Assembly: GCA_002716485.1 (NCBI GenBank)
Contig: PBBE01000053.1
Coordinates: 1 to 34,639 of the forward strand
Length of the DNA stretch: 34,639 nucleotides
Direction of reading: 5' to 3'
Source of the DNA: Actinomycetota bacterium
Lineage (GTDB): Bacteria; Margulisbacteria; Marinamargulisbacteria; GCA-2716485
Shown here: piece after piece, positions 1 to 34,639 of the stretch
Position numbering within the stretch: position 1 is the stretch's first letter
Layout: each line of letters begins with the position of its first letter
Made by a program: the position numbers and the translations under genes
Notes under the pieces: generated by a model
Database searches by the model: none
Told to the model about the DNA's origin: nothing
Seen by the model: only the letters and a program-made list of their open reading frames with translations

Positions 1-1200
1 CAAGCAATAATAAATCCAACCTAATATTCCTCCAGCTAAAATCAAAGTGGTCCAACTTGCAATCTTCATCACTAACTTGGATCTTATTTCCAGTAATTTT
101 TTATATAATATTGCAATTTGGTTCAACTTTCCTCCCAATCGCCCTGACAACTCTGCATCCCGTAAAATTTTACTTACTAACTTAGGGAATACCTGCTTAT
201 GTTCAAAGGTCGAAGAGAGTCGCTTCCCCTCAATTAATTGGGATTTGATTGCTTGGATTTCTTTTTGATAGACCAAATTGTCACTCACATTATTTAAAAT
301 ATCAAAACACTGCAATATCTTGACCCCGTTTTTTTCTAACAAATAAAAGTGTTTAAACATTTTGGTCACTAAAAACATTTTGACTGCACCATTGATCATC
401 GGAATCTTTAATATCCCTTGATGGTATCGATATCGAACGCCCTTAATGCGTCCCAATATATATAACGCAATAACTCCAACCACAATGTTCTTTAGTGTCG
501 GTATCAAATAGGTATTAATGGCCATTAAAATATCCAATGAGATCTTAGTGCGCATCAGTGTGGTTTCTTTATAATAAACGGCCTTATGCAGCTCAGGCGC
601 AAAGATAAATGCCAATACATAGATAAATATCCCAATTAGGCCCACTAAGCGTGCGATCCCATATATCATGGACATCATCTCTTTTTTTTCTTTACTTTTC
701 CATTCTAAAAACAATAAGTTTTCCTTGAGAATCTCCTGTAACTTGCCCACTCGCTCACCTGTTTTAACCCCCACAATATAAATATCTGGAAATAAGTAGT
801 TATATTCCATTAGACAATCACTTAGCTTTTTTCCTTTTTTAATATTGGTAATCATTCGATTGACCATTAACCGATAACTGAGTGAAATAAATAACCCTTT
901 CATTTCAATCATGGCATCTAATACTTGTAAACCTGAGGCCAATAGTTCTTGTAGTTCTTGGGTAAATAACAGCAACTGGTCCTTACTTAAACGTGGACGC
1001 AATATAGTATGATAAAACGATTTAAATACCAATTCACAGACGGCACTAAGTATGGGCCCTAAATTAGTCAGCTCAATATTAGCGCCTTCTTTATTTCGCT
1101 TAAGCTCATATACGGTCCACTCTTTTTCAACTTCAGAAATAAGCCCTTGTGTACGGTGGCCTTTCTCATCTAGTGTCCGATAGTAATACCATAAGTTCAT
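1..1200 (-). CDS. gspF: GspF/PilC-type inner-membrane platform protein (3' end outside window)
   Basis: Polytopic inner-membrane protein on which the assembly ATPase acts in type II secretion and type IV pilus machines. Reading the minus strand from the ATG at 1200 gives 400 uninterrupted codons up to the window edge, so the C-terminus is missing, probably by only a few residues because the frame ends inside the last hydrophobic helix. Two T2SSF repeats are visible, at about residues 72-195 and 275-390. Each has the amphipathic start (LSKDQLLLFTQEL; VTKMFKHFYLLEKNGV) and the family motif KTGERVGKL or DAELSGRLGGKL. Hydrophobic segments lie near 180-202, 228-250 and 378-400. The start overlaps the stop of the upstream ATPase gene as ATGA, so the two are translationally coupled. 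GspF and PilC cannot be separated from the sequence alone. Confidence 0.9.
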   Translation of the reverse strand, partial: MNLWYYYRTLDEKGHRTQGLISEVEKEWTVYELKRNKEGANIELTNLGPILSAVCELVFKSFYHTILRPRLSKDQLLLFTQELQELLASGLQVLDAMIEMKGLFISLSYRLMVNRMITNIKKGKKLSDCLMEYNYLFPDIYIVGVKTGERVGKLQEILKENLLFLEWKSKEKKEMMSMIYGIARLVGLIGIFIYVLAFIFAPELHKAVYYKETTLMRTKISLDILMAINTYLIPTLKNIVVGVIALYILGRIKGVRYRYHQGILKIPMINGAVKMFLVTKMFKHFYLLEKNGVKILQCFDILNNVSDNLVYQKEIQAIKSQLIEGKRLSSTFEHKQVFPKLVSKILRDAELSGRLGGKLNQIAILYKKLLEIRSKLVMKIASWTTLILAGGILGWIYYCL

Positions 1201-2735
1201 TCATTGATCTCCATGACCCTCGCGACTTCTTCAATGGTAGTAAGGCCTTTTGATACTTTTTCTCTGGCATCATTAATCATCGGAACAAACCCTTGGTCAA
1301 TGGCGGCATTTCGAATTTCTAAAAATGACCGTTCTTCATAAATCTGACTCCTTAAATGGGTATTAATTTCTAAAATTTCTACCAAAGCCACTCTTCCATA
1401 ATACCCGGTTCCTAAACAGGACTTGCAGCCCTTTCCCCGCTTATATGATTTCTTTTTTAACCCTATTTGCTTTAATAGTTTTGGATCTGGGGAATAGGAC
1501 TCACTACATTCGTTACAAACCCGACGTGCTAACCGCTGAGAGACCACCATATTAAGCACTGTTGACACAATATAGCGTGTCAGCCCTAAATTACATAAAC
1601 GATCAATACTTCTTACGGCATCATTACAATGAAGTGTACTTAGTAAAAGGGCCCCTACCAGTGCATTTTGAACCGCTACCGACACTGTTTCTTGGTCCCG
1701 AATCTCTCCTACTAAGATGACATCAGGGTCTTGTCTCAAAAAAGAGCGGCAAGTACGGGCAAAATCCATGTTAATTTTGGCATTTACCTCCACCTGATTA
1801 ATCCAATCGAGTCGTTTTTCAACCGGATCTTCCACCGTTAGAATCTGTCGACTGACGTCATTAATTTTATCTAATAAGGCATATAAAGTCGTGGTCTTTC
1901 CTGAGCCAGTGGGCCCAGTAACCAACATAAGCCCTGAGGATCGGGTACTGCCTTGAATTAATAAAGACTCATGATACTCAGAAAAGCCTAACTCTGATAA
2001 GTGATGATAAATCTGATATGAATCATGGATTCGAATGGTAATTTTCTCCCCATAAATCGCACCTATCGTGGCGACTCTTAAATTGACTTGCCGGTCCCGA
2101 ATTTGAATAATAAACTGACCATCTTGAGGCAGCCGAGATTCAGCAATATCCATTCCAGCATCAATTTTAATAATATTACCAATGACGACTGCCGCACTAC
2201 TGGGTAATGACTGAAATAAATGGAGTACGCCATCAATTCTCAAGCGAATATTTAATTTATCTTTACCAGGTTCAATATGGATATCTGAAGCACGATGGGT
2301 AATGGCATAATAAAACAACATATCTACAATTTGAACCCAAGAGGGCTGACCTTTTACTAAAATTAATGACACGGGATCTAATTCTCGGACTAAAAATGAG
2401 GCTTCTGCTTCTTTCTCAACGCCACCTTTAAAATCAGATACACTCTCAAAGACCTCTTCAAAACGCCCAAAATGACTAATTAAGGCATGTTGAAGCTCAA
2501 AAATATCAACCCTTACCAAGTGACAGGGGCCTTGGACCTCTTGCTCAATTAAATCTTTTAATTCAATATTATGAGGCTGGTCGGTCCCTATAATTAACAC
2601 CCCATCTTCAATGGCCAATGGTAAAATATGATGCTTTTCAATGAGCCTGACCGGTAATGATGACATCAAACTGTCATCTAAAGTTAAATTTGAGATATTA
2701 TTGACTTCATCTGGCCCAATATTTAAGTATGCCAT
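1197..2735 (-). CDS. gspE: GspE/PilB-family assembly ATPase
   Basis: Cytoplasmic hexameric ATPase that powers pilus or pseudopilus assembly. Residues 20-100 match the MshEN/T2SSE N-terminal domain (ILPLAIEDGVLIIGTD). The core has RASDIHIEP (148-156), Walker A GPTGSGKT (274-281), Asp box TVEDPVE (300-306), Walker B DPDVILVGEIRD (336-347) and His box STLHCNDA (366-373). The zinc-binding tetracysteine C407-C410-C437-C440, typical of extension ATPases (GspE/PilB/MshE), is intact. At 512 aa it is somewhat shorter than PilB (about 565). The start shares a base with the secretin stop (TAATG) and the stop overlaps the gspF start, so the three form one operon. No retraction ATPase (PilT) is seen in the window. 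Confidence 0.95.
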   Translation of the reverse strand: MAYLNIGPDEVNNISNLTLDDSLMSSLPVRLIEKHHILPLAIEDGVLIIGTDQPHNIELKDLIEQEVQGPCHLVRVDIFELQHALISHFGRFEEVFESVSDFKGGVEKEAEASFLVRELDPVSLILVKGQPSWVQIVDMLFYYAITHRASDIHIEPGKDKLNIRLRIDGVLHLFQSLPSSAAVVIGNIIKIDAGMDIAESRLPQDGQFIIQIRDRQVNLRVATIGAIYGEKITIRIHDSYQIYHHLSELGFSEYHESLLIQGSTRSSGLMLVTGPTGSGKTTTLYALLDKINDVSRQILTVEDPVEKRLDWINQVEVNAKINMDFARTCRSFLRQDPDVILVGEIRDQETVSVAVQNALVGALLLSTLHCNDAVRSIDRLCNLGLTRYIVSTVLNMVVSQRLARRVCNECSESYSPDPKLLKQIGLKKKSYKRGKGCKSCLGTGYYGRVALVEILEINTHLRSQIYEERSFLEIRNAAIDQGFVPMINDAREKVSKGLTTIEEVARVMEINE

Positions 2736-4447
2736 TAATAGGTTCCTGCCATTTCAGGTTCATTAATTCGAACAATATACGGGGTAATTAATACGGTAAT
2801 TTCCAATTTCTTTTCGGTGATACTTTCAAACGTAAACCATCCCCCTACTACCGGCAACGCACTTAAAAAGGGAACTTTTTTAACTATCACGCCTTTTTTG
2901 TTTTGGATTAGCCCACCAATCACAATGGTTTGGCCATCTTTAAGTAACACCTGGGTATCTGCCTGGGTTGTACTGGATCGAGGCGTATTATTCTCCACCA
3001 ACCCTTCCGAAATTTCAGGTTTAATTTCCATTAGAATCTCATCACGGTCATTAATATGAGGCGTGATTTCAAGGGTAACTCCTGTATTTAGAAACTTAAT
3101 ATTTTCGATGACTGATGTGTTACTTCCTGTGGAGGTGGTACTTTGGGTCGTATAGCCTTGGGTGGTCCCTGTATTAATATTGGCTTTTTGATGGTTAGTC
3201 ACTAAAATTTTAGGGTTAGCTAAAACATCCACATCACTTCGATTTTTAAAGGCAGCCATAAAATCCACTGCAGGCACTTTAATATCGGCCAGTCCCATAA
3301 AATAATCGCCACTCTCTTTGAGAACTTTACTGGTCTGCGCGAACATCTTTTGAAAGTCTATGCCCAGCCCTTCACTTACATCATAATTTGATTCTATAAT
3401 CACCGCTTCAATTCGAACCTGCTTCGGCCGAACATCTACCTGGCGTATTAGTTGTTCTAACTGATTTAACTTGCCGATACTGCCCTTCGCAATAATACTA
3501 CGTTCTGTAGGCTCAATGGTCATTTCGGATAATGAAGAAATGTTTTTGATGGAATTAAGGACATCTTCTACACTTAAATAATCCAAAGAGATGACCCGAA
3601 GCGGCTCTTGGTTTTCAATTTTGATCATATCATCTTTTAAATACCAGCTACACTTCCAATAAGTTAAAACACTTTCTAATAGGTCAATAGGGTGAATATT
3701 CTCATAACTAATGGTGATCTCTTGATTGGCTTGGCTGGGATTGGCGTCATAGACAATATTTAAATCAAATTCATCTGCTAAGAGTGGAATCAAGGTATTC
3801 ATATCAATTTTTTCAAAGCGATAGTCACCCCGCTCCTCAAGTCCAATATGTCGCTTTAAGATCATGTAGGCCTCTTTCTGATCAATATACAATTCCCTGG
3901 CAAAACCAAATTTGGAAAGGGATGTTTTAACCCCTGAATAATGGACACTTATTGCATGGGTTTTTGTATTATTTTGCCCTATTTTTCCTTCAAAAATAAT
4001 ATGATTTTGAGGAGATTGCTGAGATAATAATAACGAATACACAAACTCGCCCTTGGCTTGCAGTTCGACCTGGCTGCCATTGATTAACAACTGATTCACT
4101 CTTGAATTGAGGACCTGCCCCTTAATCGTTAAGGTATTTTGAGTGACTTTTTGCTGGTCTCTTGGTGTATAGATCTTAATCCAAGGATGTTCTCGTGACA
4201 TTAATTGATACGGGCTTTCAACTGTTTGAAAATGGGATGTATCGCTGGGGCTTATTGACCCTTTAGGGACCTCTTCTGGGACACTCACGCTTGTAGCAGC
4301 AGCAGGTAACACCCAAGACTGATGGGCGCCATAGGACGGTAAATGAGGCTGAATATGAGGCTCTTCTGCATGTATCTGACCACTGGCCATCCACGCTGCA
4401 ATCCCTACTCCTATTACGGCCTTTTGTAAGCACTGCTTGATACTCAT
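2735..4447 (-). CDS. Outer-membrane secretin (GspD/PilQ/MshL family) with N-terminal Ig-like domain
   Basis: Multimeric outer-membrane channel through which a pilus or substrate leaves the cell. Residues 1-27 are a signal peptide ending at IHA. Residues about 88-170 look like an Ig/PKD-type beta-sandwich (PWIKIYTP, TIKGQV, INGSQVELQAKGEF, FEGKIG), which is unusual at this place. A short secretin/TonB N-terminal domain follows (about 207-283), then an N1-like domain (about 286-340) and the secretin domain (about 343-565) with VRIEAVIIE, VLANPKILVTNHQKANINTG, GVTLEITPHI and LKDGQTIVIGGLIQ. The last 40 residues (FLSALPVVGGWF ... VLITPYIVR) are classic. It starts 2 nt after the preceding gene, with AAGGAG about 12 nt upstream. 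It could serve either a type II secretion system or an MSHA-like pilus. Confidence 0.93.
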   Translation of the reverse strand: MSIKQCLQKAVIGVGIAAWMASGQIHAEEPHIQPHLPSYGAHQSWVLPAAATSVSVPEEVPKGSISPSDTSHFQTVESPYQLMSREHPWIKIYTPRDQQKVTQNTLTIKGQVLNSRVNQLLINGSQVELQAKGEFVYSLLLSQQSPQNHIIFEGKIGQNNTKTHAISVHYSGVKTSLSKFGFARELYIDQKEAYMILKRHIGLEERGDYRFEKIDMNTLIPLLADEFDLNIVYDANPSQANQEITISYENIHPIDLLESVLTYWKCSWYLKDDMIKIENQEPLRVISLDYLSVEDVLNSIKNISSLSEMTIEPTERSIIAKGSIGKLNQLEQLIRQVDVRPKQVRIEAVIIESNYDVSEGLGIDFQKMFAQTSKVLKESGDYFMGLADIKVPAVDFMAAFKNRSDVDVLANPKILVTNHQKANINTGTTQGYTTQSTTSTGSNTSVIENIKFLNTGVTLEITPHINDRDEILMEIKPEISEGLVENNTPRSSTTQADTQVLLKDGQTIVIGGLIQNKKGVIVKKVPFLSALPVVGGWFTFESITEKKLEITVLITPYIVRINEPEMAGTY

Positions 4448-4449
4448 GA

Positions 4450-4902
4450 TTATTTCTGGCTCCTTGTTAATTGCAGTTCTTTTCCATTCTGACCTTGAAG
4501 TGTGACCATCTCGTCTGTAATGCGTTTAATAGTGAGTTGATCAATGGTATCGCCAACCTGATACCGCTGATTATTAATAATGACTTTATACCCTGACCTT
4601 TTGCTCTTATAGATGGCTGATACCTTATATTTTGGCTCACTCGCTGTATTTGATGCTCTAAGGTTTCGATACCCACGTCCTCGCTCACGCGTTTTACCAG
4701 GATCATAAATCACCCGCTCAAAGGGGTCTTTTTCCCAAACACGATTCTCGGCCAAGTTAGGAATAAAATCCGCCCCATTCATAGCTGTGGCATATATTGA
4801 TGAATTTAGTAACAAGCCGATACTTGCGCTCATCATTATAAGCCCCCCTATTTTATTGATCTTCCAACTTATCTTTTTCATCCTATTACTAACAATACCC
4901 AC
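4450..4902 (-). CDS. PilP/MshK/GspC-like periplasmic connector protein
   Basis: 150-aa protein beginning with a GTG codon; an in-frame ATG lies 7 codons later (MKKISWK). An AGAG-type ribosome site 8 nt before the GTG favours the longer form. Residues about 17-40 form a hydrophobic signal/anchor. After a low-complexity linker, residues 92-148 look like the small beta domain of PilP/GspC homology regions (YKVIINNQRYQVGDTIDQL, then VTLQGQNGKELQLTR). This domain is known to dock on the secretin N-domains. Its place directly upstream of the secretin gene, 2 nt away, matches mshK-mshL or pilP-pilQ gene order. The family call rests on the fold-like pattern and on context; sequence identity to any named member cannot be judged here. 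Confidence 0.65.
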   Translation of the reverse strand: MGIVSNRMKKISWKINKIGGLIMMSASIGLLLNSSIYATAMNGADFIPNLAENRVWEKDPFERVIYDPGKTRERGRGYRNLRASNTASEPKYKVSAIYKSKRSGYKVIINNQRYQVGDTIDQLTIKRITDEMVTLQGQNGKELQLTRSQK

Positions 4903-4953
4903 TTTTAAATCTCTTTAAACATGCTATTTTTTTAATCTATCAATGATGACCCA

Positions 4954-4986
4954 TAAAAAAACACCACCCCGAATTGGGGTGGTGTT
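4954..4986 (-). terminator. Strong rho-independent terminator of the putative pilin gene
   Basis: An 11-bp perfect inverted repeat (AACACCACCCC at 4960-4970, GGGGTGGTGTT at 4976-4986) encloses a 5-nt loop. On the minus strand it is followed by a run of Ts (4954-4960). It lies 39 nt past the stop of the 385-aa gene and before the PilP-like gene, so it should separate the abundant pilin transcript from the assembly operon. Confidence 0.9.
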
Positions 4987-5024
4987 ATCCGATACATTAA
5001 CTGTTAATTACGTTAGGTAACTAT

Positions 5025-6182
5025 CTATACATCGTCTCCTCTAGTATCGTGAGAACAGCTTCCTGTCTCTGCGCTTGTTTCGTGATTATAGTTTCCTAAG
5101 TGACAACCGTCATTGTTATCTTTGGTACCGAAGTCGACAAATAATGTTTCCACCATTGGCGCTCTTGCGTGTTGCCTGTAAAGTCGGTTTGTATTTTCAT
5201 CGATAATCATTTTATCAACAAACGCGCCTCCTTCTAATTCAATCCCGTCTGGTCCCATTCCAATCGCTTGGATCTCAGTACCGATGGTTAAGGATGCGGG
5301 TGTACCAAACTTACCTGATAACGGTGTATCTTCATAAAAGCTACCATAAGCATCATTTTGAACGCCTGTCGCAGGATGGAATCCCCGAATATAGACCATA
5401 TACTGGGCTTCGCTATCAAGCTTAGAACTTGAATCCGGCTTTTCTGCAGGTGGTACATAGTAAGAGTTACGCTTAATATTAAACTTCTCTGCCACACCAC
5501 CGTCTTTGACAAACTGCTCTGACATTAAAATTTGATCATCAACTGTAAACCCACGGTTACCCGCCACTAAATTCACCTGGTATCTCATGGTTCGATAGGA
5601 GGTCCCATCTACAAAGTTTCCGGTTCCATCACTAGTCGTGGTCCCTCTAATAATTTTGACCGCTGAGGCATCTGTTGAATAGGCATTCCCTGGATCAAAT
5701 GTTACATTAAACTGTGACGCATCTGTTACCGTGCCCACCAGTGACTTTCCAATTAATGTCCCCAGTGTAACGATTCCTTTTCCGCCTGAATAATCTTCAA
5801 CAATGGCACCACTTTGGACTTTAAATCCTAATAAGTCGCCTAGTACATCAACCTGGTCAATTTCCAGTGCAATTGCATCGGTGGCAGTTAATGGCCAGTC
5901 ATCTGCAATATTCCCGGAGGTCTTGTTGGTATATGCTTTTCCATATGCCCCCATAACCAATTCATCATGAACCAGTGATGATAGTCCCATTGCTGTAGCG
6001 ATGTGTCGATCAAGCTCAACCATCCGTCTTTGTTGGTCAGGCGTGATTTCCGTGATACCCGCTAAAATTAGCGCTGCAGCCACGGTTGCAAATGTTGCCG
6101 ATACATTCTCAGCATTATCGTCCCCTCGAAATCCTTTGATCTTCTGGACGAAGCGTTTTAATATTTTTGGTATTTTTATCAT
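5025..6182 (-). CDS. Putative large pilin-like structural protein
   Basis: 385-aa protein not recognised by family. The ATG at 6182 has a good GGGGG-A ribosome site about 9 nt upstream. The N-terminus is basic (MIKIPKILKRFVQKIKG), followed by a polar stretch (FRGDDNAENV) and one hydrophobic helix (SATFATVAAALILAGIT, about residues 28-44). This resembles a prepilin with cleavage at KG-F and an acidic residue at mature position 5 (Asp), but it lacks the usual FTLIE motif. The rest is beta-rich, Gly/Thr/Asp-rich and looks exported. The C-terminus carries a Cys pair (DGCHLGNYN ... GSCSH) like the disulfide-bonded D-region of type IV pilins. It sits between pilus assembly operons as a single gene with its own strong terminator, as expected for a highly expressed fibre subunit. 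The major-pilin role is an inference. Confidence 0.55.
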   Translation of the reverse strand: MIKIPKILKRFVQKIKGFRGDDNAENVSATFATVAAALILAGITEITPDQQRRMVELDRHIATAMGLSSLVHDELVMGAYGKAYTNKTSGNIADDWPLTATDAIALEIDQVDVLGDLLGFKVQSGAIVEDYSGGKGIVTLGTLIGKSLVGTVTDASQFNVTFDPGNAYSTDASAVKIIRGTTTSDGTGNFVDGTSYRTMRYQVNLVAGNRGFTVDDQILMSEQFVKDGGVAEKFNIKRNSYYVPPAEKPDSSSKLDSEAQYMVYIRGFHPATGVQNDAYGSFYEDTPLSGKFGTPASLTIGTEIQAIGMGPDGIELEGGAFVDKMIIDENTNRLYRQHARAPMVETLFVDFGTKDNNDGCHLGNYNHETSAETGSCSHDTRGDDV

Positions 6183-6577
6183 CTATCTAATCCCCCTTTG
6201 ATTTATAAACTCGACATTCAATATAATTTTTTTACTCTTTAAAAACATCCCCTCCTTTTTATCTCCTTCACTTTTTTAATAAGTATTATTTATTATTTTA
6301 AAATTGATATAACCTCCTGTTAGATTATGTTTTTTTGGTTTCTAATCTTATATATTCCCATTTTTTCTATTTTTTAAACATCGAAATTTTATGTTTTTTT
6401 GAGACACTCTGTTTTTATGCACCCTAGCCCCCCCCCACTTCCTTAGATTACTGCCTTTTTTGCTCATCGTATCTTGCCTGCTCGCCTATGGTATGTACGC
6501 CCATTTAATCAACCACCCTCTTCGCTTCACTTCGGTCTTCTCCAGTCTGTATTTTTATCCCTTTTCCTAAATGTGAT
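6183..6577. other. AT-rich intergenic region between divergent pilus operons, with C9 tract
   Basis: About 395 bases separate the putative pilin gene (minus) from the pseudopilin operon (plus). The part next to the pilin is very AT-rich with many T runs and probably holds its promoter, but no clear -35/-10 pair could be fixed. A run of nine Cs lies at 6428-6436. An open frame of weak standing crosses it (listed separately). No RNA gene or terminator was seen. Confidence 0.6.
6403..6570 (+). other. Open frame across a C9 tract, possible small membrane peptide
   Basis: Between a TGA at 6400 and the TAA at 6568 one frame stays open for 55 codons and crosses the C9 tract at 6428-6436. After the tract it encodes a hydrophobic helix (FLRLLPFLLIVSCLLAYG) and a short tail. 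It has no ATG in this frame. The nearby ATG at 6417 is in another frame and ends after nine codons (TAG at 6444), but loss of one C would join it to the hydrophobic frame. It could be chance or a slipped-strand switch. Confidence 0.15.
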
Positions 6578-6634
6578 ATGATAGGAGATATTGATTTCAC
6601 ATATAAAATGAATAACTTAGGGATAAAACATCGC

Positions 6635-7183
6635 ATGAAAAACAGAGGCCTATTTTACTGGTTTTCAGAGAAAGGGTTAACACTCATCGAGCTAGGTATA
6701 CTGGTATCATTAATTACGGTACTAAGTATGACCTTTAATCCTGGTTTTATTACTTATTACTTTAATGTCGTCTTAGATAGCATCTCCATTAACCAAGACG
6801 TTCAGTATGTGAACACCTACTTAACCTCATTAACCCAAAAACAACTTCAAATTAATACCCTTTCAGATCATTCAGTTAGTTTTAATCAAGGAGATGATCA
6901 CTATCACCTTTTTTTATCTTCTACAGATACAAAATCTGGTCTACGCACCCTTAAGCTAAGAAAAAACCAAGGCCCTGCCACAGAATTCCTTACTCGTATC
7001 GCCCCTGATCTTGATCCAGACACCCCTTACTTCACCTTTTCCCAACAAGACCTTTCACCCACCAGTGCCAGCGCCAATGTTCGACTTATGGCCCTGTCAT
7101 TCACCCTATCTCATCAAGTTATTTCACGTAACTTCACCTTAACTTACCCCTTATTTTCGCCAGAAGAGCTTCATCTACAATGA
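6635..7183 (+). CDS. Type IV pilin-like minor pseudopilin (canonical leader)
   Basis: Prepilin with a textbook N-methylation site: a short leader ending EKG, then LTLIELGILVSLITVLS with Glu at mature position 5, so it should be processed by a PilD-type peptidase and join the fibre tip or pseudopilus. I chose the ATG at 6635 because it gives a 14-residue leader and has TAGGGA about 11 nt upstream; in-frame ATGs at 6578 and 6608 would make the leader unusually long. The globular part (to about residue 182) shows no recognisable subfamily signature. Its TGA overlaps the next start as ATGA. It heads a four-gene operon of pseudopilins and inner-membrane platform proteins. Confidence 0.75.
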   Translation: MKNRGLFYWFSEKGLTLIELGILVSLITVLSMTFNPGFITYYFNVVLDSISINQDVQYVNTYLTSLTQKQLQINTLSDHSVSFNQGDDHYHLFLSSTDTKSGLRTLKLRKNQGPATEFLTRIAPDLDPDTPYFTFSQQDLSPTSASANVRLMALSFTLSHQVISRNFTLTYPLFSPEELHLQ

Positions 7184-7911
7184 GTCTACCCTTCACTCTC
7201 TATTCGCGCCGCCAGCATCATGGATTCACATTAATTGGGGTCTTATATGTCCTTTTATCCTTATCAGTGATTGCCCTGATCATTTTTTCTCAGACCTCTC
7301 AATTTTTTATTTCTATCTATAAATACTCTGATTTTTATAAGGCCCTTATTAATAGTGAAAAACCTGCAATCGTGGCCACTCACCGCACCCTTTTAAGCCT
7401 AGATCCAAACGAGCAGACACTTAGCCGCCTTTACAACATTGATGACATGAATGCTCAAATTAGCACGGATATGCTCCCTGCTCTGACGATTAAAACGACC
7501 CTTTCTGGAACAGAAGACACCTATACATTCTTAAAAGAAACACGTGTCCTACCTCGCCTTTCGTCTTTTATTGAATTTGACCTTTCTAATTTAGCCCAGA
7601 CACCGTATTCCTTATCACAACTTAAAATTACCAATCAGCACCTGTCTTCTAGTATTCAATTTAATTACATTCAACTAATCCCAGACCCTACTACCCCGGT
7701 CTTTTTAAATAGTATTGGGATTGAAGACAGCACTTATTCATGTTCAGTGGTTAATGAATCTACTTATTTATTTACTTGTGAATCCATTCTTCTACCGGCC
7801 CAATCTAGCCACTTGCTTACACTTAATTTTAGTAGTCCACTTAGTAATTTTTATAATTTATATCTGACCCTTTCTGACCAATCAAAGGCCCAAACCAATG
7901 TCTCTTTTTAA
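7180..7911 (+). CDS. Minor pseudopilin lacking Glu5
   Basis: 243-aa protein with a prepilin-type N-terminus: a basic leader (YSRRQHHG) followed by FTLIGVLYVLLSLSVIALII. The conserved Glu at mature position 5 is replaced by Gly, a trait known for GspK/PilX-type tip subunits that need not dock behind another subunit. The remainder is beta-rich and contains one Cys pair (TYSCSV ... LFTCES) that could form a disulfide. It overlaps the previous gene by ATGA and the next by 14 nt. The sequence alone does not assign it to a named minor pilin; tip location is an inference from the missing Glu5. Confidence 0.7.
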   Translation: MSLPFTLYSRRQHHGFTLIGVLYVLLSLSVIALIIFSQTSQFFISIYKYSDFYKALINSEKPAIVATHRTLLSLDPNEQTLSRLYNIDDMNAQISTDMLPALTIKTTLSGTEDTYTFLKETRVLPRLSSFIEFDLSNLAQTPYSLSQLKITNQHLSSSIQFNYIQLIPDPTTPVFLNSIGIEDSTYSCSVVNESTYLFTCESILLPAQSSHLLTLNFSSPLSNFYNLYLTLSDQSKAQTNVSF

Positions 7912-9400
7912 CTCATATCTCTTAAAGTCTTCATTTCACCTTAATGCCCCCAAAGGCAGTATTTTTCTTCACCAAAATAGCTTAGACATTATTATCTTTG
8001 ATCGAAAACAGCCTCAAAGCCCCCAACAATACTGGCGATTTAATAATGTTGACCAAGAAGCGCCCCTTCTTTTTTTAACCCGTTATTTAAGTGAGATTCA
8101 ACATGAATTATCCCATGCTCAATTTAGTTTATGTATTGCCAACGATGACATGATGATCAAATCAATCCCGATTATGTCTTCAAAACGACTCTCCCAGCAA
8201 ATTAAAATTAAATTAGGGTCTGATTTTCTATTTAATCATATTTGGAAATATCAATTTTATACGCCCACGAATAGCCCCTCGTTTGCACTTACTTATAAAA
8301 TTCATCAAAAAACCCTCAATGACTACCTTGGTGTTTTTAGGTCACTCAATTTAACCTTACGAGATATTGTTCCGTTCACCTCTGTTCTTGAAAGCACCGT
8401 TTCAAGCTGGCCAGCCACCACACTATCTGACCAAGCAACGGTTATTTCATATTGGCCTGACTCTTTTTCCCATTATCTTTACTTTTATGAGGCCTCCACA
8501 TTAACATATTCTCGACATTTAAATCACGCCACACAAATGGCCCCCCTTATTCAAGACCGCGCTGTTGATCAAAGTCATATCTTGGCTGAAATCACTCAAA
8601 CAATCGCCAATGATATTACCACGACTATGAAATATTTCCAGGAACATATTTGCATGACCCCCATTAAATCATTAATTCTATTGGGTCCGCCTACTAAACT
8701 CCAAGCCTTATCTAAACGGCTCCCTAAAACCGCAGCTATTTCAATGAATCCATTCTCAGTTCCCAATGAAAACACTGACCCTATAATAAGCAGTTCAGCC
8801 CCAAAACCATCCCCCTTTACTTTAGGGACTCACCGTTCCTTAAACCAACCTGAAACTAAATACTCTGCCTTTAACTTTACCCCTCGATTATACCGAATGT
8901 TAAAATACATGCCTTTATTTTATATAATACTTGCGCTAGGAATTGGGATTATTTTTTATATTAAGTGGAATGACCGCGCCGCACACTTAAAGGTACTTTC
9001 AAGCCTTGAGTCTCAATTAATTGAAAACCGACAATTATCCAATGCCCTGTCACCTGATTTTAATACCTACTCTTCCTTACTCAAACAAACGAATTATTTC
9101 TTATCTTTTAATGAAACTGTATCCAAATCGATCCGAGAAACCTCCTCTATCTTCCCAAAAACACTCTACTTTTTAAGTACCAACCACCCTGATCATCTAC
9201 AAATCACCAATATTACGATTAGTCACCGGCGATATTCCTTTAAAATGATTGGCTATTTCTTAGAAGCACATAAAAAGACCCTATTTCCTGCTTATGTAGA
9301 ACTACTTGAAACCTCCGGCCTGTTTACGAACCTACAATACTCCCTAATATCAAAGGACGAAATTTCTAGTTTTGAAATTACAGGAGCCCTCAAAAAATGA
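7898..9400 (+). CDS. PilM-PilN fusion (MshI/GspL-like) assembly protein
   Basis: 500-aa protein that appears to join two subunits usually made separately. Residues 1-325 have the outline of the actin-like PilM/GspL cytoplasmic domain (GSIFLHQNSLDIIIFD; RLSQQIKIKL; KSLILLGPPTKLQAL; FTLGTHRSL). Residues 326-500 begin with a PilN-like lead (FNFTPRLYRM), one transmembrane helix (337-356), a short coiled coil, and a periplasmic domain of ferredoxin-like length. In T4P/T2SS machines this part couples the cytoplasmic ATPase to the periplasmic alignment ring. It overlaps its neighbours (14 nt upstream, ATGA downstream), and the next gene is a PilO-like protein, its expected partner. The actin-like part looks degenerate, as in GspL, so ATP binding is doubtful. 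Confidence 0.65.
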   Translation: MSLFNSYLLKSSFHLNAPKGSIFLHQNSLDIIIFDRKQPQSPQQYWRFNNVDQEAPLLFLTRYLSEIQHELSHAQFSLCIANDDMMIKSIPIMSSKRLSQQIKIKLGSDFLFNHIWKYQFYTPTNSPSFALTYKIHQKTLNDYLGVFRSLNLTLRDIVPFTSVLESTVSSWPATTLSDQATVISYWPDSFSHYLYFYEASTLTYSRHLNHATQMAPLIQDRAVDQSHILAEITQTIANDITTTMKYFQEHICMTPIKSLILLGPPTKLQALSKRLPKTAAISMNPFSVPNENTDPIISSSAPKPSPFTLGTHRSLNQPETKYSAFNFTPRLYRMLKYMPLFYIILALGIGIIFYIKWNDRAAHLKVLSSLESQLIENRQLSNALSPDFNTYSSLLKQTNYFLSFNETVSKSIRETSSIFPKTLYFLSTNHPDHLQITNITISHRRYSFKMIGYFLEAHKKTLFPAYVELLETSGLFTNLQYSLISKDEISSFEITGALKK

Positions 9401-10119
9401 TACTTCCCTCTTTTAAATTTGGTATTTTAATTCGTTTTTTTCAACGTCATGTCTTTTTATTCTCACTTATTCCGGTGCTTTCAGGACTCTTAGTCTTACT
9501 GTTCTTTTTTATTCATAGTGTCATTGTGTTTCCTGTCCAAAACCGTATTTCTCAAACTGAAAAACGAATTCAAATCACCCAAAAGCACATTACTCGTATG
9601 CAAACAGCAAATGCGAAGGACGCTTATTTTAACTTAATTCAATCTCACCCCACCCTATTGGCACAGCTTAATGGCCATGAAGACCCCGCCTATATTATTT
9701 ATAATGAAGTGACACAAAACCCATTTACCGATATTACGATTGAAGATGTTAGTGTCTCTGGCGGCTATGGCTTTCATACAAGACACCGAAAACTAGTCAC
9801 CGATTTACTTATTAAATTTGAAGGCCAAGATCAGGTCAAGGCCATGAATTTACCTAAAAAAAAGCCTCGATCTGACTTCATTCTTGACCTTTATAACTTT
9901 TCAGTGGTCAACTTTACGATTAAAACCGATTCCCTTAAACAGTTAGGCGAATTTTTATTTTATTTGCCCCAACTTAGCATCCCTATCTTACATACTAATA
10001 TGCGTTTATCCTCACCTGATGAGGATGAGCCCTTTGAATTGACCATGAATTTATCTGTTATTTGTATCAATACGAGCTATGTTAAGGAACTGTTACTTGA
10101 TCTTTCGTCAAATCAATAA
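9397..10119 (+). CDS. PilO/GspM-like inner-membrane alignment protein
   Basis: 240-aa protein with a short cytoplasmic N-terminus, one transmembrane helix (about 19-45), a short coiled coil (about 46-70, QNRISQTEKRIQITQKHITR) and a mixed alpha/beta periplasmic domain. This is the architecture of PilO/GspM/MshJ, which pairs with PilN to link the inner-membrane platform to the secretin. Primary sequence in this family is poorly conserved, so the call rests on architecture and on its position directly after the PilM-PilN fusion (ATGA overlap). Its 3' end overlaps the convergent small gene by 38 nt. Confidence 0.6.
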   Translation: MILPSFKFGILIRFFQRHVFLFSLIPVLSGLLVLLFFFIHSVIVFPVQNRISQTEKRIQITQKHITRMQTANAKDAYFNLIQSHPTLLAQLNGHEDPAYIIYNEVTQNPFTDITIEDVSVSGGYGFHTRHRKLVTDLLIKFEGQDQVKAMNLPKKKPRSDFILDLYNFSVVNFTIKTDSLKQLGEFLFYLPQLSIPILHTNMRLSSPDEDEPFELTMNLSVICINTSYVKELLLDLSSNQ

Positions 10120-10525
10120 TATCCACATCATCTTTAATGTATACGTGATCAATATTTTGTTTTTTTAATTTGATATAAAAGATAACATTTCCTGCCTCTT
10201 TTTCAATACGAACAAATGAACTTTCTTCATCGTATAGCCCGCCACCACTGGGGTCTCTTAACATGGGAATATCTCCCATTGTGCGTAATTGTTGGATACT
10301 GACCTGAATCTCCTCATCTTCTGCCGGCCGATCGATCCAGCCCTCATAAAATCCCAGTTGAATAACGCTGGTAATCTTAGTGGCATTATAGACATGTAAT
10401 TGTTTTTCAATATTATCTTGATAACTGGCATAACTAATATATAAACCGGCACTCAACAACGCGGTAAGACCGGCTGTATGATAAGAGGCCCTTAACATAT
10501 CTACAAATGATGACACCACACTCAT
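10082..10525 (-). CDS. Small membrane-anchored protein of the pilus locus (possible atypical pseudopilin)
   Basis: 147-aa protein of unknown family. It has one N-terminal hydrophobic stretch (residues about 17-34, AGLTALLSAGLYISYASY) followed by an amphipathic, charged segment, then a soluble domain with acidic patches. The arrangement resembles a pilin stalk, and a Gly directly precedes the hydrophobic stretch, but position 5 after that Gly is Leu and the consensus is weak. It lies 64 nt downstream of a clear GspG-like gene on the same strand and is probably co-transcribed with it. Its last 38 nt overlap the 3' end of the PilO-like gene on the other strand. A role in the pilus machine is inferred from context only. 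Confidence 0.5.
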   Translation of the reverse strand: MSVVSSFVDMLRASYHTAGLTALLSAGLYISYASYQDNIEKQLHVYNATKITSVIQLGFYEGWIDRPAEDEEIQVSIQQLRTMGDIPMLRDPSGGGLYDEESSFVRIEKEAGNVIFYIKLKKQNIDHVYIKDDVDIIDLTKDQVTVP

Positions 10526-10589: not shown

Positions 10590-11354
10590 TTAGGTCCCTG
10601 AAGCCCGTTGAACCTGAGGATTGGAATGGGCAAATAACTGCCATTGATCTGTATTGGAATCATAGTCATAATGCCAATCCACGACCTCTTCCGTTCGTGA
10701 TTGCTTTGAGCGCTCTTTGGTATACGGATCATTGGGAATTTCATCTAAAAATTGTTGATCTACTAACTCCGTTAAATTACTCGGGTAATACCCAAATACA
10801 GATTGATATTGGGCCAGGGCATGCTGCATAATAATCATGCTGGCATTTAAGCTTTTTTGACTAGGGTACTGACTTACAAAAATAGATCTCTCCATTTCTA
10901 AGCCCTCATTATGAATCAGCTTAATACTCACTTTTTTAATGCGACTTCCCCCGGTCCCGCTGGCAGTATTAATGTCTGAGACTTGTAACCCGTCATTTGT
11001 TAACGTATAAAACTGACTTTGGATTTGGCCCTGTTTAATGGGGAGCCCAGCCATATCCTTTGCCCACATTACAGCTGGATCTAAGGGGCTATCATATAAG
11101 GGCTGATCGGTATTGATATCCCCAGACCAATACCCAATGGTTTTAATCTGAGCTATTTTTTTTTGGATTTGGGTCTCTAATAATACATAGTGGTCCATGT
11201 GATTCAATTTATTTAACACATAGCTACTGGAAGAAAAAATAACCGCCCACACCATTAAGACCATCCCCACTAAAAAGCCAAAATCTATTAATGTTACGCC
11301 TTGATTTCTATTCATGGCATTCAAAATTAAGTCTTTTAGATTCGCCCGTCTCAT
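10590..11354 (-). CDS. GspG-like pseudopilin with Asp at position 5
   Basis: 254-aa pseudopilin. A leader ending NRNQG precedes VTLIDFGFLVGMVLMVWAV, so the prepilin peptidase site is intact while the usual Glu5 is replaced by Asp. The C-terminal part (about 165-254) carries the GspG/major pseudopilin signature: a helix with ALAQYQSVFGYYPSNLTELV, then DEIPNDPYTKE and a Trp-Tyr strand (DWHYDYDSNTDQWQLF), the region that binds calcium in GspG. It is longer than typical GspG (about 140 aa) because of an inserted middle domain. The start at 11354 is supported by AAGGAG 5 nt upstream; an in-frame ATG 13 codons later would give a 6-residue leader and is a possible alternative. Confidence 0.8.
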   Translation of the reverse strand: MRRANLKDLILNAMNRNQGVTLIDFGFLVGMVLMVWAVIFSSSSYVLNKLNHMDHYVLLETQIQKKIAQIKTIGYWSGDINTDQPLYDSPLDPAVMWAKDMAGLPIKQGQIQSQFYTLTNDGLQVSDINTASGTGGSRIKKVSIKLIHNEGLEMERSIFVSQYPSQKSLNASMIIMQHALAQYQSVFGYYPSNLTELVDQQFLDEIPNDPYTKERSKQSRTEEVVDWHYDYDSNTDQWQLFAHSNPQVQRASGT

Positions 11355-27268: not shown

Positions 27269-28109
27269 CCCCAGTTATGCCAGCCAATTTTTCCAAGATA
27301 CCATCCTACTAGATGGCTTTAGTAAAGGGTACGCCATTACGGCCGATACCCAAGGTAGTGACGCTTTATTTAAAAACCCTGCCGCCGTTACCAATACCTT
27401 CACTAATGAATTGAACACGAGCGCGTCCTCTTACTATGATGACTTGTTTAAAACGGCTTACTTTCGACTAAAGCGTCCGCTTTCTTCGTCATGGATCGCC
27501 GCCATTCAAGTCCCTGTTCAGCGTCACCAAAACATGGCCATTACAGGCCTTAATACGACTTCAGGAGAATTCTATCAAGTCAGTACCTACGCTGACTCCC
27601 TATTTGCTACCATTGCCACTATTGGCCATCAAAAAAATGATACCGGTATGGCCTTTGGGACCAGTATCGGAGTATACCAACATCAAATCCATACCCGAAA
27701 AGAAACACGACTAGGCATTGATATTGGTCTTTTAAGCCCCTTTAAATATGGTCAATGGGGCCTATCACTTCAAAGTATTCAGACCTTGTCTCCTTTTTCT
27801 ATTTTAAGTAGCCTTCAAAGTCAGTACCAAGCAAATATGGGGTTCCATATTCTTGGCACGTCATGGCGTCCAGACCTTCTCACTGATATTAGCTTTTCGC
27901 CAAACCAACCTGCCCAAATAAACCTTGGTCTTCGCTACTCTTTAACTAATATCTTATCTATTACAGGGGGCGTATTCGACCTTAAAACCCAACGAAGAAT
28001 GAGCCTGGGAGTCAACCTCAACCTACCCAACTATGCTATCCAATATGGCTATGGTCATGCGGGGATCTTAGGAAATATCCATAAAATAGGAGTTACCCTT
28101 TATGACTAA
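27216..28109 (+). CDS. PorV/FadL-superfamily-like outer-membrane beta-barrel protein (first copy)
   Basis: 297-aa exported protein. The ATG at 27216 has GAGGGA 3-8 nt upstream and begins a signal peptide (MSGLKGVLIGCLSVLLISPSYA); a GTG at 27189 in frame is less likely. The mature start is typical of the PorV/PorQ/UPF0164 group: a GFSKGYAITADTQGSDALFKNPAAV segment in which NPA is the hallmark, followed by alternating strands, SGEFYQVSTYADSLFATIATIG, and an aromatic-ended C-terminus (KIGVTLYD). PorV is known as the outer-membrane shuttle of type IX secretion; other family members have unknown roles. It overlaps by 8 nt the gene for a subtilase with a T9SS-like C-terminal domain, a likely cargo. 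Confidence 0.7.
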   Translation: MSGLKGVLIGCLSVLLISPSYASQFFQDTILLDGFSKGYAITADTQGSDALFKNPAAVTNTFTNELNTSASSYYDDLFKTAYFRLKRPLSSSWIAAIQVPVQRHQNMAITGLNTTSGEFYQVSTYADSLFATIATIGHQKNDTGMAFGTSIGVYQHQIHTRKETRLGIDIGLLSPFKYGQWGLSLQSIQTLSPFSILSSLQSQYQANMGFHILGTSWRPDLLTDISFSPNQPAQINLGLRYSLTNILSITGGVFDLKTQRRMSLGVNLNLPNYAIQYGYGHAGILGNIHKIGVTLYD

Positions 28110-29739
28110 ACTATCTCGTGGATTCAGTCTATTCCTGGTCCTTCTTCCTGTACTGCTATTTGCACAGCCTTCCCAGCCTCATTTAGTGATTATTAAATAC
28201 CATAATAGCAACCCCTTATCCCAACAGCTTTCCGGAGGCAATGACCTGAGCACTCAAACTCAAATCAATACTCACCCTGTGGTTCACTCCTCTAAATCAA
28301 TGACGATGCCTCAATCATCTATTTATATGCCGAGCCAGGGCCTTTCCCCCGTCCAGTTTGCCCAATACCAAATGGCCACGATTAAAGAAAGTATCTCTCT
28401 TGATCAGGCCGTTTCTGAGCTCTCTCAACTCTCTGGCGTCGAGTATGTGGAGCCGGTGTACCCGGTCCATCTACATGAACAAATTAATGACCCCTACTTT
28501 GATCAACAACCTTACCTTCATCAAAGTAATCTGCACCAGCTATGGCGATTAAATGGACTGGCCAATGTTGTTGTGGCTGTAATCGATACTGGAATTGACA
28601 CCACACATCTTGATCTCAAAGATCAAATCTATGAAAATCCATTTGAACAACTCAACGGAATTGATGATGACGGAAATGGCCTCATCGATGATATCACTGG
28701 ATATAACTTTTTTAATTATTCCCTGAGTGGCGGTGCGCCTAACCCCAATGATGAGCACGGCCATGGGACTCACCTTGCTGGTATTATTGCTGCCAAACGA
28801 AATAATACTATTGGTATTTCAGGACTCTCTAGTCAAAGTTTACTATTAAACCTTCGATTCCTAGATAAGAATGGGATGGGCACCCAGGTAGATGCGGCCA
28901 TGGCCATTCGGTATGCGGCGGATATGGGCGCTAAGATCATTAATTGTTCCTGGGGCTACTTTCGACTCAATACCATTCTAAAAGAGGCCGTGGAATATGC
29001 CTTATCTAAGGGCTGTATTATTTTTGCAGCCACGGGTAATAGTCAAACGGATGTGCCAGAATACCCTGCAAGTATTTCCGGTGTAATTGCCGTGGGCTCG
29101 GTAAATCTTAATCATGAACGATCTAGCTTTTCTAGCTATGGTAGCTATGTGGACTTTGTGAGTTATGGCGAGCAAATTTATTCCACCTTGCCCAATCAAT
29201 CCTATGGCTATAAAACGGGGACCTCCCAAAGCACCGCGATTATGTCAGCAATGGCGGCAGAAGTCTTATCCTATCAACCTAACCTGACCCGACACGACCT
29301 AGAATCCCTATTTGAACAAACCGCCTCTAATAATCATCAGTCCTCTTACTTTGTAGGACATGGCATTGTGGATCCTAATCGTCTCTTACTTGGCTTGAAT
29401 GTTGACTCTGATCTGGACAACCCTTTTACTGTGATCTTTGAATCTTCTAGCCAAGACCTCAACCTGGGTGAATGTCTCAATTATCCGAACCCTGTCATGG
29501 GAAACCATACCACATTTGGTTTTTCTTCTGATAAAAATGATGTACCTGTTAAAATCCATATCTTTTCATTGGTCGGCCAAAAAATAAAAACCATCGAAAA
29601 ATCGAGTACAAACGCGTATAATACCATTAGATGGAATATTGATGAACATATTCCCAATGGCACTTATATTTATGTTGTTGAAGCGACGTACAATGGCCAC
29701 CCTTATTACCAAAAGAAACAACTGAGCATTATCAGATAA
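28102..29739 (+). CDS. Secreted subtilisin-family (S8) protease with FlgD/T9SS-CTD-like C-terminal domain
   Basis: 545-aa exported serine protease. Signal peptide at residues 1-21 (ending LLFAQ), then an I9-type propeptide region (about 25-130). The S8 domain has Asp162 in VAVIDTGID, His221 in EHGHGTHLAG, oxyanion Asn313 in AATGNS and Ser375 in GTSQSTAIMSA, a complete triad although QST replaces the common MA(A/T)P. An Asp-rich calcium-type loop (GIDDDGNGLIDD) sits at 187-198. Residues about 464-545 form an Ig-like domain with LNYPNPVMGNHTTFGF, VKIHIFSLVGQKIKTIE, and IPNGTYIYVVEA, the pattern shared by FlgD-Ig and the type IX secretion sorting domain (TIGR04183-like). It follows a PorV-like barrel gene with an 8-nt overlap. 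Confidence 0.9.
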   Translation: MTKLSRGFSLFLVLLPVLLFAQPSQPHLVIIKYHNSNPLSQQLSGGNDLSTQTQINTHPVVHSSKSMTMPQSSIYMPSQGLSPVQFAQYQMATIKESISLDQAVSELSQLSGVEYVEPVYPVHLHEQINDPYFDQQPYLHQSNLHQLWRLNGLANVVVAVIDTGIDTTHLDLKDQIYENPFEQLNGIDDDGNGLIDDITGYNFFNYSLSGGAPNPNDEHGHGTHLAGIIAAKRNNTIGISGLSSQSLLLNLRFLDKNGMGTQVDAAMAIRYAADMGAKIINCSWGYFRLNTILKEAVEYALSKGCIIFAATGNSQTDVPEYPASISGVIAVGSVNLNHERSSFSSYGSYVDFVSYGEQIYSTLPNQSYGYKTGTSQSTAIMSAMAAEVLSYQPNLTRHDLESLFEQTASNNHQSSYFVGHGIVDPNRLLLGLNVDSDLDNPFTVIFESSSQDLNLGECLNYPNPVMGNHTTFGFSSDKNDVPVKIHIFSLVGQKIKTIEKSSTNAYNTIRWNIDEHIPNGTYIYVVEATYNGHPYYQKKQLSIIR

Positions 29740-32480: not shown

Positions 32481-34639
32481 ATGACAGCATCTACCCCCCC
32501 ATCTTATTCGAAAGCAAAGGCCTTTATCTTTGCCCTTATGGCCAGTCTCTCACTCTCGTCAGGGCTATACGCACAAGAGACTGAGGATCTTAACTATATC
32601 AAAGTCCAAGCCCAATTTTCAGAACAAAGCACGGGTGCCTTAATTAACGGGAACCGTGATGTCACCGTTCAAATTACCAAAGGGGACCAAGACTCAGAAT
32701 CTGAACAATGGTCTCAACTCTTTTCTGACACGCCTTTTGTGGATGGCTTCGTAAGCCTTGAGTTAGGAAAGGACCCTAACAATCCCCTCTCCGCAGATAT
32801 TTTTGATGAGTCTAACTGGATCCGGTTCACTGCAAGTGATGACTCTGGTAACTCTAATACTGCGGTTATTCCTATCTTAGCAGTTCCTAAGGCCATTAAA
32901 TCAGAACGGGCCTCTTCTTTGGGTATCTCTGATCGCCTTTCGATCACCTTAGACCCCCTCACAGATCAACTCATTGTCTCGGGTAACTTAACGCTGAAAT
33001 CAATTAATGCCGTATCTACATCCAATTTTAACCTTTTGACCCAGGACCAAAATCAATTGGTCCAAGTGAACCCTGGCGGACATGCCAACCAAGTCCTCAA
33101 AGTTTCTTCTGAAGGCAACTCCTTTGACTTGGCTCCAGCCTTATTACTAGGCTCAGAAGATCCCCAAACGTTTACTGGTACTCAATTCGTTATTGGAAAC
33201 GAGTCTGAACTACAAGTTCTAGGTTCGCTTCGAATGAATACTACCAATGACCCCATTGCCTTTTCAGGACTTAGTAATGATTTTAGAGTGATCAATAATG
33301 CCTTGAGCATTAATACAGATGCCCTTCCACAAATACCGGCCATGTCAAACTTGGGTCAGTCTCTGGTGGCTGCTGATACAAAGGAAAATGCCCATACTGT
33401 TTTGGGAATCTCAGAACTTGGCTTTATTAATCAAGAAACCCTTAGTGAACAAGGCTTTTTAACCAGTGTTCCTGAAGAATTTGTTACTGAAACCGAGCTA
33501 AACACACAACTATCTAGCAGCTTAGCGCCTTACTCTTCTGCCACTTTTACCAGTGACTCGGACGGTTTGGTCCCCAAATCATCTACAGCAGGCGACCAAA
33601 ATAGGTTTCTTAGAGGAGATGGGACCTGGCAAACACCGTCAGGATCTGATATGGCGCTTTTTTCGGATACCGCCGCTGGACTCGCACCTCAAATCGACTT
33701 AGGTGACGAACATAAATTTTTAAAAGGGGATGGAACCTGGGGCACCCCCCAAGGAACTACTTACGGAACATTCGACAACGATAACCCTGGACTGGTCCCT
33801 GCGCCTGGTGCCGATAAAAGCACCCATTTTTTACGTGGGGATGGTGAATGGGTAACGGCCCCTACTGACGGCACGGGTACTGATAACCAAGATATTGAAG
33901 GCTCTGTATTAACTGACCAAATCCTAACAATTGGAATTAAAGATGGTAGTTCTCAAGACGTGGAACTAGGTCATTTATATGCACCGCTTTCAGGAGTAAG
34001 TGCAGTGGGGACCTTGGTACCCCCCTCTAACGCTGAGTCACAAAATAAGTTTCTTAAAGGAAATGGGACTTGGGGAGAGGTTGTCAGTAACGGAAGCGGA
34101 ACCGATGATCAAGATATTTCTGGTTCTGGTTTAGCAGGTCAGATCCTAACCATTGGAATTGAGGATGGTAATTCAGAAGAGGTGGACCTAAGCGCATTAT
34201 ATTCAGTATTTTCAATAGATAGTACTGAAGGGTCTTTGGTTCCTGCCTCTACTGTTGATGAGAAAGATAAGTTTCTAAAAGGCGATGGGACTTGGGGCAC
34301 CCCTACTGATACGACTTATAACCCCTTTTCACCCGCTACCAACAGTGACTCTGGGAGCACGGGCCTTGTCCCTGCACCACCTGCGACAGCTCAGGTCAAA
34401 TTTCTAAAAGGCGACGGCACTTGGGACACTCCTTCTGATACGACTTATAATGCCTTTTCAGGCGCTGATGGTACTAATTCAGGAAGCGCTGGGCTTGTAC
34501 TTGCGCCAGCGGCGGATGATAATCTCAAGTTTCTTAAAGGCGATGGCACTTGGGACACACCTCCCGGTACAACTTATAGCCCCTTTTCAGGCGCTGATGG
34601 TACTAATCCAGGAAGCCTTGGGCTTGTACTTGCGCCAGC
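32481..34639 (+). CDS. Large secreted protein with tail-fibre-like KGDGTW repeats (3' end outside window)
   Basis: Open frame of at least 719 codons running off the right edge, with AGGAGGA 7-8 nt before the ATG. Signal peptide: KAFIFALMASLSLSSGLYA. Residues about 35-145 match a pattern known from large surface proteins of many bacteria: GALINGNRDVTVQITKG, WSQLFSDTPFVDGFVSLELG, and IPILAVPKAIKSERA (compare ADLF...W and VPYAFRA types). A central region of 200 residues follows. From about residue 360 the repeats begin, each with (K/R)FL(K/R)G(D/N)GTW, ending in variants of TTY and GLVPAP. Such GLVPAP-KFLKGDGTW units are familiar from phage tail fibres and from bacterial adhesins that end in a trimerisation/endosialidase-chaperone domain. 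The C-terminus is not in view. It follows the second PorV-like gene by 20 nt. Confidence 0.85.
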   Translation, partial: MTASTPPSYSKAKAFIFALMASLSLSSGLYAQETEDLNYIKVQAQFSEQSTGALINGNRDVTVQITKGDQDSESEQWSQLFSDTPFVDGFVSLELGKDPNNPLSADIFDESNWIRFTASDDSGNSNTAVIPILAVPKAIKSERASSLGISDRLSITLDPLTDQLIVSGNLTLKSINAVSTSNFNLLTQDQNQLVQVNPGGHANQVLKVSSEGNSFDLAPALLLGSEDPQTFTGTQFVIGNESELQVLGSLRMNTTNDPIAFSGLSNDFRVINNALSINTDALPQIPAMSNLGQSLVAADTKENAHTVLGISELGFINQETLSEQGFLTSVPEEFVTETELNTQLSSSLAPYSSATFTSDSDGLVPKSSTAGDQNRFLRGDGTWQTPSGSDMALFSDTAAGLAPQIDLGDEHKFLKGDGTWGTPQGTTYGTFDNDNPGLVPAPGADKSTHFLRGDGEWVTAPTDGTGTDNQDIEGSVLTDQILTIGIKDGSSQDVELGHLYAPLSGVSAVGTLVPPSNAESQNKFLKGNGTWGEVVSNGSGTDDQDISGSGLAGQILTIGIEDGNSEEVDLSALYSVFSIDSTEGSLVPASTVDEKDKFLKGDGTWGTPTDTTYNPFSPATNSDSGSTGLVPAPPATAQVKFLKGDGTWDTPSDTTYNAFSGADGTNSGSAGLVLAPAADDNLKFLKGDGTWDTPPGTTYSPFSGADGTNPGSLGLVLAP
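33606..34639 (+). repeat. Tandem repeats coding KFLKGDGTW units; 37-, 74- and 43-residue spacing
   Basis: The codon for Phe of the KFLKGDGTW core occurs at 33606, 33717, 33828, 34050, 34272, 34401 and 34530. Steps are 111, 111, 222, 222, 129 and 129 bases, all multiples of three. The 222-base step is twice the 111-base one, but its extra half is a distinct domain (GTDxQDI ... ILTIGI.DG.S). The last 129-base copies are nearly identical in DNA. Confidence 0.9.

Follow-up and report, generated by a model that had tools for sequence, protein, structure and literature searches.

A divergent pilin-like protein at a type 4 filament locus of a Margulisbacteria genome and its narrowly distributed candidate family

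Results

Organization of the locus

The stretch of DNA analysed here (the window; 34,639 nucleotides) is an entire contig of a 1.40 Mb genome that is 56% complete. A gene for a 385-aa protein sits between a same-strand operon for GspC-like, secretin, GspE and GspF proteins and divergent genes for pilin-like, GspL-like and GspM-like proteins. The features are as follows, a slash marking the predicted cut in signal motifs.

1..1200, minus: GspF/PilC-type platform protein, running off the window (Pfam PF00482; best NCBIfam model GspF)
1197..2735, minus: GspE/PilB-type assembly ATPase with an MshEN domain (domain matches)
2735..4447, minus: secretin with an N-terminal Glucodextran_B-like domain (Pfam PF00263, PF09136)
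4450..4902, minus: GspC/GspB-like periplasmic protein (Pfam T2SSB, 28.5 bits, barely above the cut-off)
4960..4986, minus: intrinsic terminator between the 385-aa gene and the GspC/secretin operon (folding)
5025..6182, minus: pilin-like protein CDS, long family, 385 aa (ORF; 13-relative profile)
5055..5105, minus: C-terminal stretch with Cys360 and Cys376 (sequence; not conserved in relatives)
5568..5576, minus: VNL motif, residues 203–205, the most strongly conserved motif in the family's body region (VNLAG; alignment columns invariant or nearly so)
6051..6104, minus: hydrophobic segment, residues 27–44, aligned with the relatives' membrane/alpha1 helix (hydropathy, alignment; low-confidence model helices)
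6123..6182, minus: predicted leader peptide, residues 1–20 (MIKIPKILKRFVQKIKGFRG), cut likeliest after G20, alternatively after G17
6190..6199, minus: ribosome-binding site AAAGGGGGAT (sequence)
6578..7183, plus: pilin-like protein with an EKG/LTLIE signal (sequence; weak prepilin matches)
7180..7911, plus: pilin-like protein, HG/FTLIG (ComGD-like match, E 8e-5)
7898..9400, plus: GspL/PilM-like protein (no hit in Pfam; named from its position and by analogy with the C26 locus)
9397..10119, plus: GspM-like protein (weak Pfam T2SSM match, E 0.078)
10082..10525, minus: 147-aa member of a companion short pilin-like family (65.8 bits to the profile of its L034/L035/L036 relatives)
10590..11354, minus: 254-aa pilin-like protein, QG/VTLID (sequence)

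The 385-aa ORF starts with ATG, about 9 nt downstream of AAAGGGGG. Its features are present as the first-pass annotation described them: a basic leader ending in KG (MIKIPKILKRFVQKIKG), Asp at +5 counted from Phe18 (D22), a hydrophobic segment and a C-terminal pair of cysteines. The leader, 20 (or 17) residues long, carries seven Lys or Arg and no Asp or Glu. The hydrophobic run of residues 27–44 is preceded by DDNAEN, peaks at a 19-residue Kyte–Doolittle value of 1.69 at residue 29 and is the only such segment in the protein, and Cys360 and Cys376 are its only cysteines. The proposal that the gene has a strong terminator of its own is likewise upheld, the element at 4986–4960 forming an 11-pair stem with 7 GC pairs and a T-rich tail (folding z-score −3.7; 1 of 200 shuffles equally good). 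The gene has no codon bias beyond background, the reference set being without ribosomal L2 and EF-Tu, which are absent from the incomplete genome. Upstream, a short in-frame ORF (6183–6248) has GGAGGGG just before its ATG and stops at a TAG abutting the ATG of the 385-aa gene; with its Shine–Dalgarno spacing too short, it is probably a chance ORF.

Among the machine proteins, the GspE, GspD and GspF models score best, each under its equivalog cut-off. A search of the incomplete window genome gave no PilT, and the one further ATPase found there is GspE/ComGA-like rather than PilT-like. The earlier description of a 'pilus locus' is thus only partly sustained: type 4 filament genes do lie on both sides, but the machine looks as T2SS-like as T4P-like and the locus could equally build a T2SS-like pseudopilus. 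Elsewhere in the window lie a gene for a subtilase with a weak match to a type IX-type sorting domain (28102–29739; PF18962, under the cut-off) and one for a large, secreted-looking, adhesin-like protein with FLKGDGTWGTP repeats (32481–34637), which runs off the contig end and has no Pfam match.

A family reached through the adjacent secretin

Used alone, the 385-aa protein had no match in Pfam or NCBIfam and no relative in single-sequence searches of phylum and GTDB contigs. A weak match in G056 (E 0.0097) was set aside as chance, being antisense inside an EF-Tu gene, and a sequence search of the PDB returned a chance dehydrogenase only. Since single-protein searches gave no relatives, the neighbouring secretin was used as query and relatives were reached by reading the loci of its orthologues (Candidatus Marinamargulisbacteria and kin). 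Secretin orthologues in G003 and G024–G026 match at E≤1e-90, the next-best at 3e-66.

The final profile finds 15 family members, one to four per locus, from 5 of the 74 phylum genomes (the window genome G000, G003 and G024–G026). This long family is confined to the five genomes that have the secretin subtype of the window, the other four being those with the four closest secretin orthologues. Two family ORFs lie directly upstream of a GspC–secretin–GspE–GspF operon in G003, which is of the same order as the window genome; G025 and G026 each have four, between pseudopilins and GspF, and in G024 three adjoin GspF on its upstream side. In every one of the relatives' proteins a basic leader, a Gly and a hydrophobic helix precede a body in which the motifs DPTA, YD, VNLAG, PFxYxxS and VILPxD recur. 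A prepilin peptidase gene adjoins the GspC–secretin genes in G024–G026; the window genome, 56% complete, yielded none. The upstream G003 member (L033, 6913–7866) seems to begin at ATT behind a GGGGGG run, a start chosen because no ATG, GTG or TTG precedes the leader.

A second long-family member of the window's genome (L088, 9123–9884) has GspL/M-like and canonical pilin genes nearby. The L088 region (G000:C26), at 3195–9884, appears as a second type 4 filament locus with GspL/M-like and several pilin-like genes, and the long-family member lies right behind an adenylate/guanylate-cyclase-type gene (7166–9052; judged from sequence). By eye, the protein of L088:936–1676 and the 254-aa pilin-like protein of the window (10590–11354) have a common C-terminal stretch (LPNNPYT...EEEVDWDYQQQ and IPNDPYT...EEVVDWHYDYD, respectively), which recalls the C terminus of GspG.

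Membership of the 385-aa protein

A profile built from 13 relatives, with the window protein left out, scored the window protein at 21.4 bits; among 1,000 shuffles the top score was 9.3 bits, the reversed protein reached −0.4 bits, and residues 71–385 alone scored 14.5 bits. In the MAFFT alignment, G20 falls in the column of the relatives' leader Gly and V203–N204–L205 in the columns of VNL. Identity to the other members is 15–26%, and BLASTP against the protein from G003, the nearest genome, gave E 0.002. Compared profile to profile, eight f17 members did not match the window protein significantly (probability 1%); the link had to be made through G003, of the same order, whose protein matches the f17 profile at 4.7e-7. 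Taken together, the alignments support the window protein as a distant member of the family, of which the window gene is the longest and most divergent.

It is well supported that a family in five genomes with a constant assembly/secretion machine is real, small, previously unnamed, narrowly distributed and pilin-like. The suggestion of a novel pilin-like class made from the window alone is therefore substantiated: there is a family, unnamed, with a conserved class III-type leader Gly and a type 4 filament locus. The suggested D-region disulfide fared worse, Cys360 and Cys376 being absent from the mature parts of the relatives; only the L088:9123 protein has a pair, at other positions.

The cleavage site

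In class III signals the leader is hydrophilic and basic and its last residue is Gly or Ala (PMC10191384). The leader of the window protein is basic and hydrophilic and ends in Gly, and its gene is accompanied by type 4 filament machinery (GspC/D/E/F, in the window and in relatives). The leader Gly is invariant across all aligned family members, in leaders of 14–31 residues. Of 200 random subsets of the alignment, most put the cleavage Gly at G20 and a few at G17 or elsewhere. The most likely predicted cut is thus after G20 (RG/DDNAE) rather than after G17, which displaces the KG-F site of the first-pass annotation. The residue at +5 is then Glu (E25), or Asp if counted from G17; in relatives it is Leu, Ile, Ala or Thr. 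Glu5 is common, not universal, in such signals (PMC10191384).

A class III signal continues, straight behind the cut, with 20–25 residues that are mainly hydrophobic. Hydrophobic residues follow the Gly directly in relatives (NALLLATAG...; Kyte–Doolittle up to 2.6). The hydrophobic stretch of the window protein begins at about +7, behind the acidic DDNAE, which is unusual for a class III signal. The prepilin signature models PF07963 and TIGR02532 match neither the window protein nor any long-family member tested.

Structure models

The AlphaFold model of the window protein has a pLDDT of 37; its alignment lacked G003, the best bridging relative. A relative was modelled at pLDDT 62, with helices at residues 2–18, 20–46 and 49–80 followed by strands, and this model found no PDB match. 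The models are too weak to display a pilin fold, the lollipop in which a long alpha1 helix packs on an antiparallel sheet.

A companion short family

The 147-aa protein at 10082–10525, which is without Glu5, is homologous to the proteins of L034, L035 and L036. The profile of this short family matches the canonical YSLIE pilin of L088:3195–3695 at 38.1 bits, with 25.9 for the body, and that pilin passes TIGR02532. Long and short families have a common motif at the helix end, EKxxHxxNA (hhalign score 33.6, against 19.9 for the best of 60 column permutations). Their bodies do not match, and the link between them is one of the helix region only.

Discussion

We consider that the 385-aa protein probably belongs, as a divergent and enlarged member, to a family of type 4 pilin-like subunits restricted to one lineage. 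Its single N-terminal hydrophobic helix would insert in the membrane, leaving the basic leader on the cytoplasmic side, and a prepilin peptidase would cut after the leader glycine, most likely G20 (RG/DDNAE). The adjacent machine of GspE ATPase, GspF platform, GspL–GspM and GspC–secretin could then assemble the subunit, the product being a surface or periplasmic filament with the putative beta-rich body exposed.

An accessory or mixed-subunit role is slightly favoured over that of major subunit because relatives have several tandem paralogues. It seems rather unlikely that the 385-aa protein is the dominant subunit of the locus's filament, the major pilin of the first-pass annotation. The loci read of the window contig (G000:C53) and of G024–G026 encode no GspG-type pilin, a long-family gene occurs at every such system, and the strong terminator sets the 385-aa gene apart from the machine genes, all of which would suit a major pilin. 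However, most relatives have two to four family members, the tandem paralogues (three or four per f17 genome, two in G003) are non-identical, no terminator was found 3′ of the relatives' genes, the 385-aa gene shows no codon bias beyond background, and the relatives are without Glu5. Moreover, a canonical GspG-like pilin is encoded at a separate locus (L078) of the same genome and could serve as a shared major subunit. We can entertain, tentatively, a large minor or tip subunit analogous to GspK/PilX that has been multiplied in some relatives. GspK-type subunits are comparatively large and without Glu5 (PMC5207764; PMC10191384), and in known systems they occupy the tip, where they start assembly (PMC5207764); this fits a long-family protein that is larger than the companion pilins, a hydrophobic or neutral +5 residue in all relatives and a GspC/D/E/F/L/M-like machine for which PilT was not found; set against it are the unmatched T2SSK and PilX models, the Glu at +5 of the window protein if cut after G20, and a number of copies per locus that is unusual for a tip cap.

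It is also quite improbable that the protein is no pilin at all and instead a periplasmic partner of the secretin machine, either membrane-anchored or secreted, with an ordinary signal anchor or signal peptidase I signal. The unmatched prepilin models, the acidic residues directly before the hydrophobic segment and the lack of a confident pilin fold in the models would agree with such a partner, but the invariant Gly at the expected −1 position behind leaders of 14–31 residues, the linkage to a prepilin peptidase and the likeness between its helix end and that of a family containing a canonical pilin argue for a pilin-like subunit. Returning to that reading, a more ambitious form of it, to which we give little credence, is that the family provides the bulk of a type 4 filament that is heteropolymeric and specific to some Margulisbacteria, with subunits mostly without Glu5 and drawn from several co-encoded paralogues.

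A pilin-like family without a match in the signature databases is previously undescribed, and it occurs in a phylum that is related to Cyanobacteria and in which surface structures have hardly been studied. Should the family consist of filament subunits, the majority would work without Glu5, the residue credited with driving subunit docking, and the family would test the generality of that rule.

In design the long family may be comparable to the large GspK/PilX-type subunits. Both have a Gly-ending pilin-like signal, a larger size than the other subunits and GspC/D/E/F/L/M-like machinery, and the relatives' +5 residue is non-acidic. They differ in that the family matches no T2SSK model of Pfam or NCBIfam and no PilX model, that it has several paralogues per locus and that in the window protein the +5 residue counted from G20 is Glu. 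With canonical type IV pilins and GspG (PF07963, TIGR02532) the window protein has in common the basic leader, the Gly, the N-terminal helix and the neighbourhood, and its body is probably beta-rich; unlike them it is without a signature match and without [FYL]xLIE, and at 385 aa it is much longer. A further comparison is with heteropolymeric type 4 pili such as those of a monoderm bacterium (PMC10628169). In the same way, a locus with more than one similar pilin gene could point to a mixed filament. The pilins of the monoderm bacterium, however, are reportedly canonical type 4 pilins.
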